Below are positions 4,381 through 21,676 of a DNA stretch of 27,687 nucleotides, piece after piece. The translations under genes and the position numbers were made by a program. Position 1 is the first letter of the stretch. Each line of letters starts with the position of its first letter. Source of the stretch: a virus; the IMG/VR virus record IMGVR_UViG_3300047333_000170, positions 1 through 27,687 of that record; one strand, 5' to 3'. A model generated the notes under the pieces. The model did no database searches. It had not been told where the DNA came from and was given only the letters and a program-made list of their open reading frames with translations.

Positions 4381-4800
4381 ATGACTATTACAACAACTAA
4401 CGCACTCCCTGCGCCAGTGCAACAATGGTTTGACAACGTATTGTTGTCCAGACCTATGCCTAAGCTTATACATAAGCAGATGGCTTTAAAGAAAGAAATT
4501 CCGCCTAACAGCGGAAGAATAGCGAGATATCGTAGATATACAAACCTCGCTACAGCAACTGTACCACTACCAGACTCTGGACTAACACCTCCAGGTCAGG
4601 TTTTGAATGCAGTTGATATTGATGCAAGACTCGACTGGTATGGTAACTACGTCACCATCACCGATCAAGTTATGTTCATCAACCAAGATCCCGTGCTGAA
4701 TCAAACAGTGTCTCTCTTAGCACAAAATATGAGAGAAACCGAAGATCAGCTAACAAGAGATATGCTCGCGGGCTCAGCAGCGGTGATAAATTGTGTCGGT
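4381..4800 (+). CDS. Major capsid protein (N4-gp56 type), exon 1
   Basis: Exon 1 encodes residues 1-140, ending AAVINCVG. It contains features of the N4-gp56 major capsid family: an N-terminal arm with QWFDNVLLSRPMPKLIHK, the RIARYRRYTNL strand, PLPDSGLTPPGQ, and the DWYGNYVTITDQV motif. The start has GGAG eight bases upstream. Without splicing the frame runs 18 more codons into the intron and stops at 4855-4857, giving a truncated 158-residue product. The 5' splice site after T4800 is set by the P1 helix. The exon joins in phase 0 to exon 2 (5585-6115) to give 316 residues, a normal length for the family. Confidence 0.88.
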
Positions 4801-5584
4801 AAAAGATACTCTGCCGACGTTAAATCTTCTCTGATTAACTTGGAATTAGCAGCATAATTTCAATAAGAAAAGATTTATAAAACTTGACAATTTGCTGGAA
4901 ACCCCTAAAGCCTTATGCTACAATATGCACTACCGCATAAAGTGAAAATGCAAAGGATGGAACAATGGGCGATCAGCAGGAAAGATTGGAATTAGAAATG
5001 AATTGGTTTGCAGGATTTTTTGAAGGAGAAGGGCACATTTCATTATGTAGATGTTCTCATACTTCTAAAAAACAATTAGGCAATCTAAGATATATACCCA
5101 TGGCAGGTTTGTGTAATACTGATTACACAGTTTTACCAGAGATTCAAAGAATTTTAGATTTAAGTGGCATCACTTATTGTATTCAAAGACATAGAATTAA
5201 TGGTTTGGGTAAGAAACCTAAATGGGAAATAGACTTTAAGGGAATGAATAAAATTTATACATTTTGTAAATGGATTCTACCCTATATGAGAAGTGAAAAG
5301 AAAATAAGAGTTAAAAAATTGATAGAATTTTGTGAAATTCGTCATAATAAGCTTAAAATTTCTCATCAACATCCATATGGGATAGAAGAAGAACAGATTT
5401 ATAGAGATCTTTATTCTTATAAAGGAAAGACTGATTCCAAAATCCTCAACGACTTTACGTCAGGCTCCTTGCAGTTACAAGGATGAAGATAAAGTCTGAA
5501 CTCTATGGAAACATAGAGAGGGAGATTCGAAGAAGTTTCCCCGCCTACAATATAATGTAGGTCACAAAAGTAACAGATGTTTTG
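4801..5584 (+). ncRNA. Group I self-splicing intron in the major capsid gene
   Basis: Core helices found by eye: P1, exon GTCGGT (4795-4800) with GCCGAC (4813-4818), giving the required U.G pair at the splice site; P3, CTTGAC (4883-4888) with GTCAGG (5459-5464); P4, TGCTG (4893-4897) with CAGCA (4974-4978); P5, CCC/GGG inside it (4902-4904/4967-4969), extended by TTATGC/GCATAA (4913-4918/4935-4940); P7, GACTTTA (5451-5457) with TAAAGTC (5490-5496); P8, TCCTTG/CAAGGA (5466-5471/5478-5483); P9, CTCTATG-GAAA-CATAGAG (5501-5518), with a GNRA loop; a further hairpin CCTACA/TGTAGG (5544-5549/5556-5561). The terminal G is G5584. P10 pairs GGAGT of exon 2 (5585-5589) with ACTCT (4808-4812), next to P1. 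The intron is 784 bases and carries an endonuclease gene. Confidence 0.9.
4965..5486 (+). CDS. LAGLIDADG homing endonuclease (intron-encoded)
   Basis: A 173-residue protein with a single LAGLIDADG motif, FAGFFEGEG at residues 15-23, in which E22 is the expected metal-binding acid. One motif predicts a homodimer, like I-CreI. The rest is basic and beta-rich (RYIPMAGLCNTDYTVLPEI, then IDFKG). The start at 4965 follows AAGGATGG at about 8 bases. The start codon overlaps the P5/P4 strand of the intron, and the last 12 codons (ILNDFTSGSLQLQ) are read from P7, P3 and P8. The enzyme would cut intronless capsid genes near the GGT|GGA junction and so spread the intron. It is more AT-rich than its exons. 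A maturase role is possible but not shown. Confidence 0.88.
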   Translation: MGDQQERLELEMNWFAGFFEGEGHISLCRCSHTSKKQLGNLRYIPMAGLCNTDYTVLPEIQRILDLSGITYCIQRHRINGLGKKPKWEIDFKGMNKIYTFCKWILPYMRSEKKIRVKKLIEFCEIRHNKLKISHQHPYGIEEEQIYRDLYSYKGKTDSKILNDFTSGSLQLQG

Positions 5585-6115
5585 GGAGTTAATGGAGACA
5601 TGCCTACGGAATTGAGCCGTAGCGATATTGACGCGGTCGTAATCGCATTGTTAAACAATGATGCAATGATGATCTCTGACAATATATCTGGTGACCTGAA
5701 GTTCGGTACAGCACCGATCAGAGAAGCCTTCTGGGGAATGCTAAACGCGCAGTACTTGGATGACTTGGAAGCGACTACGGGTTTCGTATCGCAAGCCCAG
5801 TACCCAAGTAACATGACGGTTCTTAATGCTGAATGGGGCTCTGTTGGTAACGTGAGGTTCCTTTACTCTAGCCGTGGGTCGATCACACCGAATGCTAGCT
5901 TAAACGGAAACAACGTTGCAAACTGCTTCGTAACGGGTATGGAAGGATATGCTTGCGTAGAACTGACAAGAGCTACATGTGAGTTTATTTACACCCCACC
6001 AGGTGGACCAATGGACCCACTAAGAAGACTGCAACTGGGCGCATGGAAAATGGCTCAGGTACCTAGACTCTTAAACGATGCATGGGTGTTCAACCTCCGT
6101 GCTACACACTCATAA
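5585..6115 (+). CDS. Major capsid protein (N4-gp56 type), exon 2
   Basis: Exon 2 encodes residues 141-316, starting GVNGDMPTELSRSDIDAVV. It holds the second half of the N4-gp56 family: the FGTAPIREAFWGML segment, MTVLNAEWGSVGNVRF, a central GMEGYACVEL strand, IYTPPGGPMDPL, and the end QLGAWKMAQVPRLLNDAWVFNLRAT. A TTG (5582) opens the frame if read alone, but it lies in the intron and is not a real start; the P10 pairing and the in-frame join to exon 1 place the first coding base at 5585. Spliced, exons 1 and 2 give INCVG-GVNGD, which reads as one continuous capsid sequence. Confidence 0.88.
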   Translation, partial: GVNGDMPTELSRSDIDAVVIALLNNDAMMISDNISGDLKFGTAPIREAFWGMLNAQYLDDLEATTGFVSQAQYPSNMTVLNAEWGSVGNVRFLYSSRGSITPNASLNGNNVANCFVTGMEGYACVELTRATCEFIYTPPGGPMDPLRRLQLGAWKMAQVPRLLNDAWVFNLRATHS

Positions 6116-6123
6116 GGAGATAT

Positions 6124-7149
6124 ATGCCTTTTGCAGAAAATTTCAGAATACAAGGGACATTTACAGCTCCTGCGACTCTACCAGCTTCCATCAACTTGAA
6201 CCTTGGGTTTATTCCTTCTGGTTTCAAGATGTGGGATTTAACTCAGGCGGGTGTGTCTACGTCAGCATTTTTGCAATACTTGGAATGGCAGTCAAATTGG
6301 ACTACTAACCAAGGTATCGCGACGTATATCACTTCAGGAGGTACAACCCTTAATCAAGCTGCGGTAACTACTAATGGTATATCTATATATGACGGCTCTC
6401 AAGGTTTCACTCTTGGGCCTAATATTACAGGTACTACTATTACCCAAGCTAACCCAGCCGTTGCAACAGCTACAGCTCATGGCCTTCAGACTGGCGACCA
6501 AGTTATCTTTAATAACCTCGCCGTAATGAAACAAATCGGTGGTATTCCATTTACTGTGACAGTAACAGGTGCTAACACCTTTACTATTCCGATCAATACC
6601 TCTGGCTTTGCTGCTGCTGAAACTGCGTTTACTATCAATAAAATCTTAGTAAACAACCTCTACTTTCCAAATACCTTGGTTATCACAGGTATCACACAAG
6701 CTAACCCAATGGTTGTCACCACAAGCACTAACCATAACTTAAAAGTGGGTCAGCAAGTGAGATTCCGTATACCAGCAGTATTCGGAATGCAGCAACTTAA
6801 CGTCGGACCTAACAATTCATTGTATGGCCTACAAGGCGTTATCTCTGCTGTAACCTCAACAACCTTTACTATTGCAACTGTTAACTCAACAAGCTTTACA
6901 GCTTTTGTATGGCCAGTGGTCGGAAAAGTTCCTTTCACACCTGCACAAGCTATCCCTGTTGGGTCAGGTCCTACACCTATCACAGTAACGCCAGCGCTTG
7001 TTTACAACGATGACTTACTAGTAGATGCCGTGACCAACATTCAATTTAAAGGCATAACAATAGGTACTAGCATTTTGCAGTCGACTGGCACATTTGTTAT
7101 CGCTGCATCCGATGTATTTGCCTATGAAGCTTGGAGGGATGACGTTTAG
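6124..7149 (+). CDS. Putative virion/tail protein with two E1-FCCH-like modules
   Basis: I take the ATG at 6124, which has AAGGAGATAT immediately before it, over the longer frame that opens inside the capsid gene. The 341-residue product has an N-terminal beta-rich domain (MPFAENFRIQGTFTAPATLP) and two copies of a module of the pattern ITxANPxVVTTxxxHxLxxGxxVxF...TFTI (about residues 100-163 and 187-259). This pattern fits the E1-FCCH-type beta module found in phage virion proteins. The C-terminus returns to beta-rich sequence ending in DVFAYEAWRDDV. Directly after the capsid gene, it is likely a head or tail structural protein. The stop abuts the next ATG. Confidence 0.6.
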   Translation: MPFAENFRIQGTFTAPATLPASINLNLGFIPSGFKMWDLTQAGVSTSAFLQYLEWQSNWTTNQGIATYITSGGTTLNQAAVTTNGISIYDGSQGFTLGPNITGTTITQANPAVATATAHGLQTGDQVIFNNLAVMKQIGGIPFTVTVTGANTFTIPINTSGFAAAETAFTINKILVNNLYFPNTLVITGITQANPMVVTTSTNHNLKVGQQVRFRIPAVFGMQQLNVGPNNSLYGLQGVISAVTSTTFTIATVNSTSFTAFVWPVVGKVPFTPAQAIPVGSGPTPITVTPALVYNDDLLVDAVTNIQFKGITIGTSILQSTGTFVIAASDVFAYEAWRDDV

Positions 7150-7572
7150 ATGGTTAAGCAAACCTCTACAGCGCATCTCTTGCCTATAGTGCCTTTCTCA
7201 CCCGCGAGGGTTCAAGTGATAGGCATTACTCAGGCCAAACCTGGGGTTGTGACAACATCACAACCCCACAATCTCCAGAATGGGCAAGAAATTCGTATAA
7301 ATGTACCGCACCCTTGCGCAATGACTCAGATTAGCGGACAAGAATTTGTCTCCATCATATTGAGCCCTACGACATTTGCTTTATACGAAACTTTATATCC
7401 ATCGCCTGTACCTTTCAGCACCATTAATTACACACCTTTCATCAATGCAACAGCTACTTTACAAGCTGAAATGGTCCCCATAGGCTCAGCGTCTCAACAA
7501 AATCAACATGCCGTTCCGTATTTTTATACGTCGACAAAAGATCAATTATACAATGAAGGAGAACACTCATGA
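7150..7572 (+). CDS. Virion protein with one E1-FCCH-like module
   Basis: A 140-residue protein, starting immediately at the stop of the preceding gene and overlapping the next (ATGA). Residues 22-80 repeat the module seen in the gene before it: VQVIGITQAKPGVVTT, HNLQNGQEIRI, FVSIILSPTTFALYE. The C-terminus is polar and has a Gln/His stretch (SASQQNQHAVPYFY). It looks like a partner or detached copy of the preceding gene. Virion function is inferred from context. Confidence 0.55.
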   Translation: MVKQTSTAHLLPIVPFSPARVQVIGITQAKPGVVTTSQPHNLQNGQEIRINVPHPCAMTQISGQEFVSIILSPTTFALYETLYPSPVPFSTINYTPFINATATLQAEMVPIGSASQQNQHAVPYFYTSTKDQLYNEGEHS

Positions 7573-9088: not shown

Positions 9089-9760
9089 ATGGCCAACTTT
9101 AAATCACGTCCCAGAGCCCAAGACAATAGAAACGTATCGCAAGGCGATATTCAAGGCAACTTCGATTACTTAGCTAATGACTATCAAGACCCTGTATTAA
9201 GCGGAGTTCTTCCCGTAGATCACCAGATAACAGGTACCAATATTGGTACAACAGATGGTTTTCACAAGCAGGTAAGTTTTCTGAATCGTGGTGCTACTCC
9301 AGCAAATTTAACCAATGCCGTGAATGGCCAAGCATCGAACGGCATATTGTATACTATAGCTGATACTGAGGGTAACTCCGAACTTCACTTCTTAAATGAT
9401 AATGAACAAGATTTCACTCTTACTAACTCTAATAGTATTATCACTGTACCTGATGTTGCGGTTGTCATCGGACCTCCCGCACCTGTCTATACATTTCCAA
9501 CAGATATAAATTGCTTTGGATGGATATATCCTATCAACAAGACAAATCCTTCTATAGTTGGACAACCTGTATATTTTGTTGTATTCACAAACGTTCTTTA
9601 TCTCGTTAACAATACAATGACAGCGGGTTTGAATGTTGCCCTGCTTTCCTCACTCACTTATACCGTCACAGGTGCTCCACCACTTACATTAAACGTACAA
9701 GCGAATGGATTGAATTTCCCTGGAACCTATGCTTTTAGAATACAGGTAACGAATTTATAA
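9089..9760 (+). CDS. Putative tail-associated protein, 223 residues
   Basis: Starts after GAGGTAAT and overlaps the next gene (TAATG). N-terminal part is charged, with VSQGDIQGNFDYLANDYQDP; the middle is rich in Thr, Asn and Gly (ITGTNIGTTDGFHKQVSFLNRGATPANLTNAVNG), and the end is beta-rich (YTFPTDINCFGWIYPINK, LTYTVTGAPPLTLNVQANGL). It may be a small tail-fibre or adaptor-fibre linker. No family recognised; being cotranscribed with the adaptor and the large tail protein is the only functional hint. Confidence 0.5.
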   Translation: MANFKSRPRAQDNRNVSQGDIQGNFDYLANDYQDPVLSGVLPVDHQITGTNIGTTDGFHKQVSFLNRGATPANLTNAVNGQASNGILYTIADTEGNSELHFLNDNEQDFTLTNSNSIITVPDVAVVIGPPAPVYTFPTDINCFGWIYPINKTNPSIVGQPVYFVVFTNVLYLVNNTMTAGLNVALLSSLTYTVTGAPPLTLNVQANGLNFPGTYAFRIQVTNL

Positions 9761-12267
9761 TGTACGAAGCAAAATTAATAGCACCTTTAAACTCTGGCCT
9801 TGTAAACTATTACAAACCATATCTTGTCTCACAAGATGCTTTTACGACTTTAGAAAATGCCTACACATCAAGAGGTTTCGTAAAAAAAAGAGAAGGCACT
9901 TCTTTACTTGCACGCACTCCCATTTGGAATACTATAACCAACATTACTAATGCATCTCCTCCCGTGGTTACTACAGCTACTAATCATAATCTATTATCTG
10001 GTGATATGGTCTGGCTGGAGGGAGTAGTTGGGGCAACAGATTTAAATCAAAACTCCTATGTTATAACAGTTCTTTCACTTACTACATTCTCATTACAATA
10101 TTTGTCTGGTTTTGTATTTCTGCCCAATGCCATTCCTCCAAACGATCAATATCTTGAGGTTACTCCTGGTTCAAACGTCGCAGCCGATGGGGTAGGGACA
10201 GCAGGTAATATCTACCTCCCTATACTTGGCACACGCATATATATTCTCCCAGGTACAGGCAATGAGCTTCTCTTTGTTTTTAACTCTAAGAAAGTCTATC
10301 AATATAATCCAGGTGCAGGAACTTTAACGGATATAACATTTGACGAAGATGGAACCGCTTTTTTCTGGAAGGGTACTAAAGACTCATTTTATTACTCTTC
10401 TAATTATGCCAATGCTATATGGGTTACTAATAATAATGACACAGACCAAATCAAATATTACAACGGGTCGGTTACTGATGGATGGAACACTACTTTTCCT
10501 GTATTGGTTGGTACTATTCCTCCTACTATCCTTACGTCTTCATTACTCATCTTGCCTTATAAGGGCTATCTTGTCGCTCTCAATGTAACCGAGAATGATA
10601 CCCAATTTCAGAATCGAGCTACTTGGTCACAACAAGGTACTCCCTATACAGGAATTGCATTACCTACACCTAATACAGCTATAACTTTAGGCTCTCCAAC
10701 CATAATAACATCACCTGCTCACGGTTTAACTACTGGCGATATCGTAGGTCTATGGAGCTTCCTTCCACAGAATCCTAACATACTCAACGGTAAAACATTT
10801 GTCGTAACGGTCATCGATGCTAACAATTACAGTATTCCTCCGGATACTTCGGGCACAGGAATAACGGTAGATAACTCCTATACTCAGCTAATGGGTGATC
10901 CTCCCACACCTTTCGTTAACGACCCCTATGCCTGGAGACGTGACATACCTGGTAAAGGTGGGTTTAATGATGCTGACACTACCGAAGCTATTATATCTGC
11001 TGAGATTATTAATGATGTTATGATAGTAGGTTTTCAATTCTCAGAATGGCGTTTACGCTTCACAGGCGATCAGACAACACCATTCATATGGGAACGTATT
11101 TCAACAAGTTTCGGAGAAGAGTCAACTTTCGGTTCCATAGCAATGGACGAAGGCAAACTCGGGGTATCCCGAAGAGGCTTTATACGTTCCACGCAGAATA
11201 GAGTCGAGCGTTTCGACATGGCGGTCTTTGATAAAGTAGATCAAATACAAACAGATATTGCCTCCGGCGTAGTAGGTTTCTCCCGTGTTCATTCCGTACG
11301 AGATTTCAACAAACGACTTATCTATTGGACCTATGGCGAGCAACAAGGCTCTAACAACACACCTAACAAACTCCTTTGCTATAACTATCAAGATGACAAC
11401 TTCAATACATTTGACCAAAGCTTCACAACCTTAGCACTTTATAAGCAAACGACTGATAACATATGGGCTACTTGGACAACTCCTTGGGCAGGCGATACCT
11501 CTACATGGACCGACCCTTTCGAGCAACTAAATGCCATTATTATCGTTGCAGGTCAACAAAATGGCAACGTATGCCAATTCTTAGATCCAAATGTATCAAG
11601 TGATATTGGCAGTCCGTTATCTACAGTGATGAGCAATTACAATTTTAATATCACTACTAAAAAGTTTAATCCTTATATAGATAAAGGCAAAAAATGCCGA
11701 CTACAATACTTCGATGTATATATAGATTCTAACTCAGTTACTCCCATACTGGTTTCAACCATATCTCAAGCCCCAAGCGCTGTTGTCACAACCGTTATAC
11801 CGCATAATTTGGTAACTGGTCAGTCAGTACAAATGATCAATCTAAACTCTATGCCTGCTTTGAATAACACTAATTTCACTGTCACCGTTACAAGTGCGAC
11901 AACATTTTCTATTCCATTCAACACAACTATAATCGGACCCTACACAGACTTAGAGGGAACAGTAAATGTATTCGGTGAGATAACATATCAACATTTCGTC
12001 GATGATAATCCAGAGCCTGTATTACAAAGACGTATAAACACTGCGCAACTTGGAGTAACTGGAAAATATGTACGTATCTTTTGTGGCGTTAATGCTCGTT
12101 TCCATCAAATCGCTCTTACTCTCTCCGATGGAACAAACGACTATCTGCCTATTCCTCCCGCTATTAATCCCGACAATCAACTTGATGATCCTATTAAGGG
12201 TCAATCCCCTTTCTCTATGCAAGGAATAGTCATACATACTAGACCAGAAGGAATCATCAAATCATGA
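9760..12267 (+). CDS. Large tail stabilisation-type protein with three E1-FCCH-like modules
   Basis: An 835-residue protein. Residues 1-45 hold an N-terminal tail-like arm (SGLVNYYKPYLVSQDAFTTLENAYTSRG) often seen at the start of podovirus stabilisation proteins of P22 gp10 type. Repeated beta strands follow, with GNELLFVFNSKKVYQYNPG, WVTNNNDTDQIKYYNG, DPYAWRRDIPGKGGFNDAD, MIVGFQFSEWRLRFTG and GKLGVSRRGFIRSTQNRVERFD, in the arrangement of a beta-propeller. Three E1-FCCH-like modules lie near residues 59-117, 306-364 and 664-722. The role would be to close the tail knob below the adaptor. Function inferred from layout and length. Confidence 0.6.
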   Translation: MYEAKLIAPLNSGLVNYYKPYLVSQDAFTTLENAYTSRGFVKKREGTSLLARTPIWNTITNITNASPPVVTTATNHNLLSGDMVWLEGVVGATDLNQNSYVITVLSLTTFSLQYLSGFVFLPNAIPPNDQYLEVTPGSNVAADGVGTAGNIYLPILGTRIYILPGTGNELLFVFNSKKVYQYNPGAGTLTDITFDEDGTAFFWKGTKDSFYYSSNYANAIWVTNNNDTDQIKYYNGSVTDGWNTTFPVLVGTIPPTILTSSLLILPYKGYLVALNVTENDTQFQNRATWSQQGTPYTGIALPTPNTAITLGSPTIITSPAHGLTTGDIVGLWSFLPQNPNILNGKTFVVTVIDANNYSIPPDTSGTGITVDNSYTQLMGDPPTPFVNDPYAWRRDIPGKGGFNDADTTEAIISAEIINDVMIVGFQFSEWRLRFTGDQTTPFIWERISTSFGEESTFGSIAMDEGKLGVSRRGFIRSTQNRVERFDMAVFDKVDQIQTDIASGVVGFSRVHSVRDFNKRLIYWTYGEQQGSNNTPNKLLCYNYQDDNFNTFDQSFTTLALYKQTTDNIWATWTTPWAGDTSTWTDPFEQLNAIIIVAGQQNGNVCQFLDPNVSSDIGSPLSTVMSNYNFNITTKKFNPYIDKGKKCRLQYFDVYIDSNSVTPILVSTISQAPSAVVTTVIPHNLVTGQSVQMINLNSMPALNNTNFTVTVTSATTFSIPFNTTIIGPYTDLEGTVNVFGEITYQHFVDDNPEPVLQRRINTAQLGVTGKYVRIFCGVNARFHQIALTLSDGTNDYLPIPPAINPDNQLDDPIKGQSPFSMQGIVIHTRPEGIIKS

Positions 12268-21115: not shown

Positions 21116-21676
21116 ATGCCTAGTGGAGTTTATGAAAGAGATTTGAAAAAATGTAAAACAATTTTTGAGAAAGGTCGAACACCTCATAATAAAGGTAAAG
21201 AAACTGAAAAAAAACTAAAGAAACTCGAAAAATTTAAACTTGGATTGCCTATAGAATGCAAAATACATGGAGAACATACTAATTGGAGAATGCATAGTAG
21301 TAATAATGTTCAGTGTAGAAAATGTGCTGCTCGATGGCAAATGGAAATGAAAAAAAGAGATCCATTGAGATTTTTATATAGGGATGCTAGACGGCACGCC
21401 AAAAAGCAAAGCAGAGAATTTAAAATTACTATAGAAGATTTAAAAAATTTAATGATAATTCAGGAAAATAAATGTGCATTGTCAGGAATTAAGTTTGATG
21501 AAAATAATCTTCCTTCTCTGGATAGAATAGACTCAAAAATTGGATATGTGAAAGAAAATATACAATTAGTTTTAATAAAAATAAATCGAATGAAAAGTGA
21601 TTTTGAATCAAATGAATTTTTGGAAATATGTAAAGATATATATAGATACTCAATTAGAAAATCTATAAATACTTGA
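21116..21676 (+). CDS. HNH homing endonuclease
   Basis: 186 residues. The N-terminus MPSGVYERDLKKC...RTPHNKGK (residues 1-28) has the short basic shape of NUMOD-type DNA-binding segments. C48-x2-H51 and C67-x2-C70 may form a zinc ribbon. The C-terminal part has ENKCALSGIKFDENNLPSLDRID (117-139), then GYVKENIQLVLIKINRMKSDF, the HNH-type fold of phage homing endonucleases, with C120, D136/R137 and N157 as candidate key positions. No group I core surrounds it. TATACT (21091-21096) lies 20 bp before the ATG. The gene is clearly more AT-rich than its neighbours, as expected for an invader. Confidence 0.8.
   Translation: MPSGVYERDLKKCKTIFEKGRTPHNKGKETEKKLKKLEKFKLGLPIECKIHGEHTNWRMHSSNNVQCRKCAARWQMEMKKRDPLRFLYRDARRHAKKQSREFKITIEDLKNLMIIQENKCALSGIKFDENNLPSLDRIDSKIGYVKENIQLVLIKINRMKSDFESNEFLEICKDIYRYSIRKSINT

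Follow-up and report, generated by a model that had tools for sequence, protein, structure and literature searches.

What becomes of a major capsid protein when the gene that encodes it is interrupted by an intron and the RNA is translated before the intron has been removed? The question is raised by a capsid gene in the window (the whole stretch of 27,687 nt of viral DNA that was analyzed, itself a virus record in IMG/VR), and we address it by asking what the gene and its insert are, what related introns look like, and what peptide the unspliced RNA would encode.

A divided capsid gene and its intact relatives

The segments 4381–4800 and 5585–6115 encode two parts of one protein that join in phase 0 (INCVG-GVNGD) to give 316 residues. 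The exon 1 half, read with its intron-encoded tail, scores 86.6 bits against TIGR04387 and matches phrog_1357 with an E value of 1.7e-18, and the exon 2 half matches phrog_1357 (E 1.1e-9) and scores 52.5 bits against TIGR04387, for which the cut-off of 60 applies to a whole protein; an intact relative scores 162 bits. The N- and C-terminal halves align to successive parts of the TIGR04387 (N4-gp56 capsid) profile, meeting the test of family membership, and about 40 IMG/VR relatives that are 75–89% identical have a co-linear, unbroken 316-aa ORF in which the site at residue 140 is empty. A sequence-only reading of the window had proposed an N4-gp56-type capsid gene divided by an insert of 784 nt at 4801–5584, with a 316-residue product after a phase-0 join and one of 158 residues without splicing. 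The coordinates, length, and join prove exact, both profiles match both halves, the relatives have an unbroken ORF of the same length, and the exon 1 frame is open for 158 codons.

The insert is almost certainly a mobile group I intron that is removed by self-splicing, a conclusion drawn from sequence and not shown by RNA. Its predicted helices are listed in Table 1. In P1, U4796–U4800 pairs with G4813–A4817, with the extra pair G4795–C4818, and this helix covaries among the related type A introns described below. The splice sites proposed from the sequence alone, after T4800 and after G5584, both stand: the U.G pair of P1, the terminal G (G5584), and a 5-bp P10 that joins 5585–5589 to 4808–4812 are the features expected of a group I intron, and all three are present. 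At the predicted 3' site of related introns P10 averages 3.2 bp, against 1.7 in shuffled controls (sd 0.10). P9 of the window intron occupies 5501–5518. The covariance search that the sequence-only reading had suggested as a check does find a group I core, in that an Rfam search of a 1-kb region matches RF00028 at 5390–5518 with E=1.4e-9 and 43.5 bits, which is under the gathering score of 50; RF00028 is absent from a scan of the whole window at the gathering cut-off.

Table 1. Features of the interrupted capsid gene and its predicted intron, in window coordinates.
Feature	Position	Strand	Basis
Exon 1 of N4-gp56-type major capsid gene, residues 1–140	4381..4800	+	TIGR04387, phrog_1357, co-linear intact relatives
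P1: 4795–4800 with internal guide sequence (IGS) 4813–4818, U4800.G4813 at 5' splice site	4795..4818	+	Sequence
Group I intron (predicted), 784 nt	4801..5584	+	RF00028, empty site in ~40 relatives, helices
Exon 1 in-frame extension KRYSADVKSSLINLELAA and stop TAA (4855–4857), proposed degron	4801..4857	+	Sequence, recurrence, controls
P10 strand of internal guide, partner 5585–5589, 5 bp	4808..4812	+	Sequence
P2-like hairpin UAAAUCUU/AAGAUUUA enclosing LAA codons	4822..4878	+	Minimum-energy fold of 4794–4880, no covariation data
P3 5' strand, partner 5459–5464	4883..4888	+	Sequence pairing
LAGLIDADG-like homing endonuclease ORF, 173 aa, overlapping 3' core	4965..5486	+	Pfam, phrog_5046
P7 5451–5456/5491–5496 (GACUUU/AAAGUC), P3 3' strand 5459–5464, P8 5466–5471/5478–5483	5451..5496	+	RF00028 alignment, pairing
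P9, P9.1, and P9.2 hairpins and 3' end AAAGTAACAGA...G, common with type A introns, e.g. L157	5501..5584	+	
Exon 2 of capsid gene, residues 141–316	5585..6115	+	phrog_1357, TIGR04387

Elsewhere in the window, at 6082–7572 and 9760–12267, a module like ITNASPPVVTTATNHNLLSGD is repeated in three adjacent tail-region proteins, and an 835-aa protein with such a module has a short match, far under the cut-off, to TIGR01408 (ubiquitin-activating enzyme). A tRNA-Ile with anticodon TAT lies at 2011–2081 on the minus strand.

A chimeric intron at an intron hot spot

The intron ORF has a LAGLIDADG-like motif; it matches PF00961 (E 6.7e-4) and PF14528 (E 9.5e-4) just under the curated cut-offs, with 20.9 of 23.1 and 19.8 of 22.5 bits, respectively, and matches phrog_5046, which is annotated as an HNH endonuclease, with E 1e-13. 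A free-standing endonuclease-like ORF at 21116–21676 on the plus strand matches phrog_3322 (E 2.7e-26) and also endonuclease VII and Srd-like families. Comparison of its parts indicates that the window intron is a chimera, in which an IA-type core and the LAGLIDADG-like ORF are flanked by sequence from a different group I subgroup. Its two termini, ...KSSLINLELAA on the 5' side and ...AAAAGTAACAGA on the 3' side, are those of the intron types that we call A and B, and the IA-like core and the ORF lie between them. The best DNA similarity of the core is to the DNA polymerase intron of Thomasclavelia phage TR-TP1 (E=3e-6), and introns of Staphylococcus phages give weak DNA matches. The same chimera is found at another site, residue 181, of a related capsid gene (L361), where it has a different 3' domain, and a type A intron with a nearly identical 3' domain occupies the window's own site in L157. 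It is likely, though untested, that the core and ORF moved as a unit between resident introns, as the two capsid sites with their locally differing 3' domains would suggest.

The capsid gene is an intron hot spot, and other members of this capsid family carry inserts elsewhere in the same gene. Two scans with 3'-core patterns gave ~200 related introns of types A and B, and those in capsid homologues fall into some 30 position bins, with the caveat that positions are uncertain in distant members. Introns in capsid genes have precedents, in LittleE and Tuc2009 (PMC3706429). Three features went unnoticed in the sequence-only reading: the intron ORF together with the chimeric make-up, the hot spot, and the ssrA-like ...LELAA end, which is conserved at the protein level in related introns.

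Types A and B have, on comparative evidence, a group I core. When 24 type A introns are aligned, pairing holds in 96% of cells, and in 20 of the 28 pairs both partners change. Covariation scores 0.499, compared with 0.167 after shuffling and ~0.1 when the sequences are slid, the latter being the fairer control because shuffling ignores relatedness and because one of the aligned sequences supplied the structure. RF00028 gives no match to type A or B introns. Almost none of them occur among 50,697 phage records, and in GTDB genomes the exact type A pattern has 17 matches, one of them in an intron context. The locus exposes a group I subgroup that escapes the Rfam model and has hardly any members in deposited phage genomes or, at the sensitivity of an exact pattern, in GTDB genomes.

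Five capsid genes (L052, L053, L055, L056, and L057) also contain, near codon 88, mini-inserts of ~56–68 nt with an in-frame ...LLAA, LKAA, or LIAA stop. Each has a P1, and a P10 that varies in step with the 3' exon, but no ribozyme core. In every case a full group I intron follows a few dozen bases downstream; a pattern scan for mini-inserts found no copy without such an intron. It may be that one ribozyme serves both inserts. Translational bypassing of these 56–68 nt was rejected, as there are no matched take-off and landing codons and, by eye, P1 and P10 change together.

The in-frame tail of the unspliced product

In the unspliced RNA the capsid frame continues through 18 intron-encoded residues and ends ...KSSLINLELAA, which satisfies the sequence criterion for an ssrA-type end, namely a terminal Ala-Ala carboxylate preceded by a tail five or more residues long. 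This ending recurs. Within the close family, 17 capsid genes are interrupted, and the first in-frame stop is preceded by AA in 16 of these and by VA in the other, against a background of 0.36% for stop-terminated frames. Unbiased scans identified 75 introns in which the exon frame passes through the core, and here the frame ends in AA in 41 and in A in 51, with no charged residue at the end in any of them, whereas in the two remaining frames of these introns AA occurs in 1 of 150 (p=5e-23). When the exon frame stops before the core, AA is found in the same frame in 2 of 25 introns. An additional scan, based on another pattern from the core, returned seven introns, all ending in A and four in AA, against 0 of 14 off frame. 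These p-values overstate independence, since the introns are related, and the reading frames and P1 helices of the related introns were assigned by script. The codon-position entropy of the tails is 1.53 at the third position and 0.59 and 0.37 at the other two; free third positions beside nearly fixed first and second positions are the mark of selection on the peptide. The stretch that encodes the tail varies in location, being found in L5, L6, or the P1 loop, and in the P2-like hairpin in the window.

A second conserved class of tail (EVAIS, VVAFS, EVVIN) does not end in AA and follows the pattern (E/V)V(A/V/T)(I/L/F)(S/N/G)-stop, with third positions that vary too; its members are L123, L177, L243, L250, L257, L262, L271, L278, L303, L337, and L354. 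Two further endings, ANDxxFALVA and NTMGALAA, each before a stop, look ssrA-like but are apparently exon encoded, with the stop formed at T/AA, and were not used as evidence.

What is observed is an open frame that leads into the tail, and a tail that recurs and is conserved at the protein level in related introns. From these observations we infer, as the more probable reading though one well short of certain, that the intron encodes an ssrA-like degron that clears truncated capsid protein; the degradation itself, the protease, and the benefit are all inferred. Ala-Ala-COO- is the key ClpXP element (PMC7652416), and hydrophobic C termini lower protein levels and are generally avoided by bacterial proteins (PMC7246954). 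A ribosome translating exon 1 of unspliced RNA would enter the intron and halt at 4855–4857 after the 18 residues, the Ala-Ala carboxyl end would act as an ssrA-like degron, and the 158-residue fragment would be destroyed by host ClpXP or a similar protease. Otherwise, a fragment of the most heavily translated virion gene would accumulate and could poison assembly. Weighing against this reading are the second class of tail, with its different ending, and the absence of an Ala-Ala tail from the classic introns of T4 td, nrdB, and Tuc2009.

It remains possible, though we consider it unlikely, that this is an ordinary group I intron in which the peptide has no role and the LAA ending arises incidentally, from hairpins that the RNA forms in its loops and from shared ancestry. 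Recurrent hairpins, of which CUGC-AUA-GCAG is an example, and the recurrent motif CGUAAAGACG do carry Ala codons, the core CAGCGTGA yields AA and a stop in one frame, and RNA motifs partly dictate the final Ala codons in two classes of tail, the +18 class (GCGTAAAGACG) and RAQAKAA. An incidental origin would not account for third positions that vary while the first and second are fixed, for the confinement of AA to the exon frame, or for the same ending being reached through different loops and different RNA sequences, and the introns that stop earlier have short loops without the LAA ending.

Constraint on the stop codon, and not on the residues before it, seems to us doubtful as an explanation; here the stop would bar ribosomes from the ribozyme core or couple translation to the intron ORF, with the residues incidental. 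Indeed, the LAA stop overlaps or adjoins the ATG of the intron ORF in L047 (TAATG) and in L160 and L355 (ATGATG), an arrangement that suggests translational coupling in those introns. Placement of the stop, however, leaves both the Ala-Ala and the synonymous variation unexplained, the ORF in the window begins 107 nt further downstream, and many such introns have no ORF there. Least credible, and in our view very improbable, is that the tailed, truncated capsid is a stable functional protein such as a minor or decoy capsid form. Many introns do keep the frame open across the conserved core, which is in favor of such a protein, but the truncation point ranges from about residue 86 to beyond 260 among relatives, so that there is no common product, and the truncated form is absent in ~40 relatives.

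If the tail does act as a degron, it would offer an answer to how an intron can persist in a gene from which truncated products could poison assembly. The ribozyme loops show selection as peptide too. We would extend the proposal, with slightly less assurance, to a large unrecognized group of group I introns in phage virion genes that encode exon-framed C-terminal degrons, such that the unspliced product self-destructs and introns are tolerated at many sites of the top-expressed gene. No earlier report of an intron with an ssrA, degron, or proteolysis tag was found in the literature, subscription papers being outside the scope of the search.

Comparison with known introns and with tmRNA tagging

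The window intron shares its P3/P7/P8 core, 5' U.G pair, and terminal G with phage group IA introns, including those of T4 td and nrdB, of Staphylococcus Twort-like phages, and of the Thomasclavelia TR-TP1 polymerase gene. In the td, nrdB, and Thomasclavelia introns, however, the exon frame stops at or just past the splice site without Ala-Ala, whereas 18 residues are read in the window. The major head gene of Lactococcus phage Tuc2009 has an intron with an endonuclease ORF, as in the window, though its exon frame ends FPAWS, with no Ala-Ala. In a P22-type coat intron (MW202674) the frame ends ...QDAYFLLAA; its P1 is unfixed, so the exact start of the intron-encoded tail is uncertain. The capsid intron of mycobacteriophage LittleE (L386), which has a LAGLIDADG-like ORF like that of the window, and the tail-gene intron of mycobacteriophage BAKA (L390) are reported to splice efficiently in infected cells (PMC3706429), and their exon frames end VATAAA and LAAAAA, respectively. 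Each of these two endings is weak evidence alone, as the genomes are rich in Ala codons, and both phages differ from the window virus in capsid family and host; the published account of the two introns does not discuss the tail (PMC3706429). Finally, tmRNA (ssrA) tagging places a C-terminal ...LAA on truncated proteins, as is found in the window tail, with Ala-Ala-COO- as the main ClpXP determinant (PMC7652416). In contrast with the tmRNA tag, the window tail is intron encoded and precedes an ordinary stop codon, with neither tmRNA nor a stalled ribosome involved.
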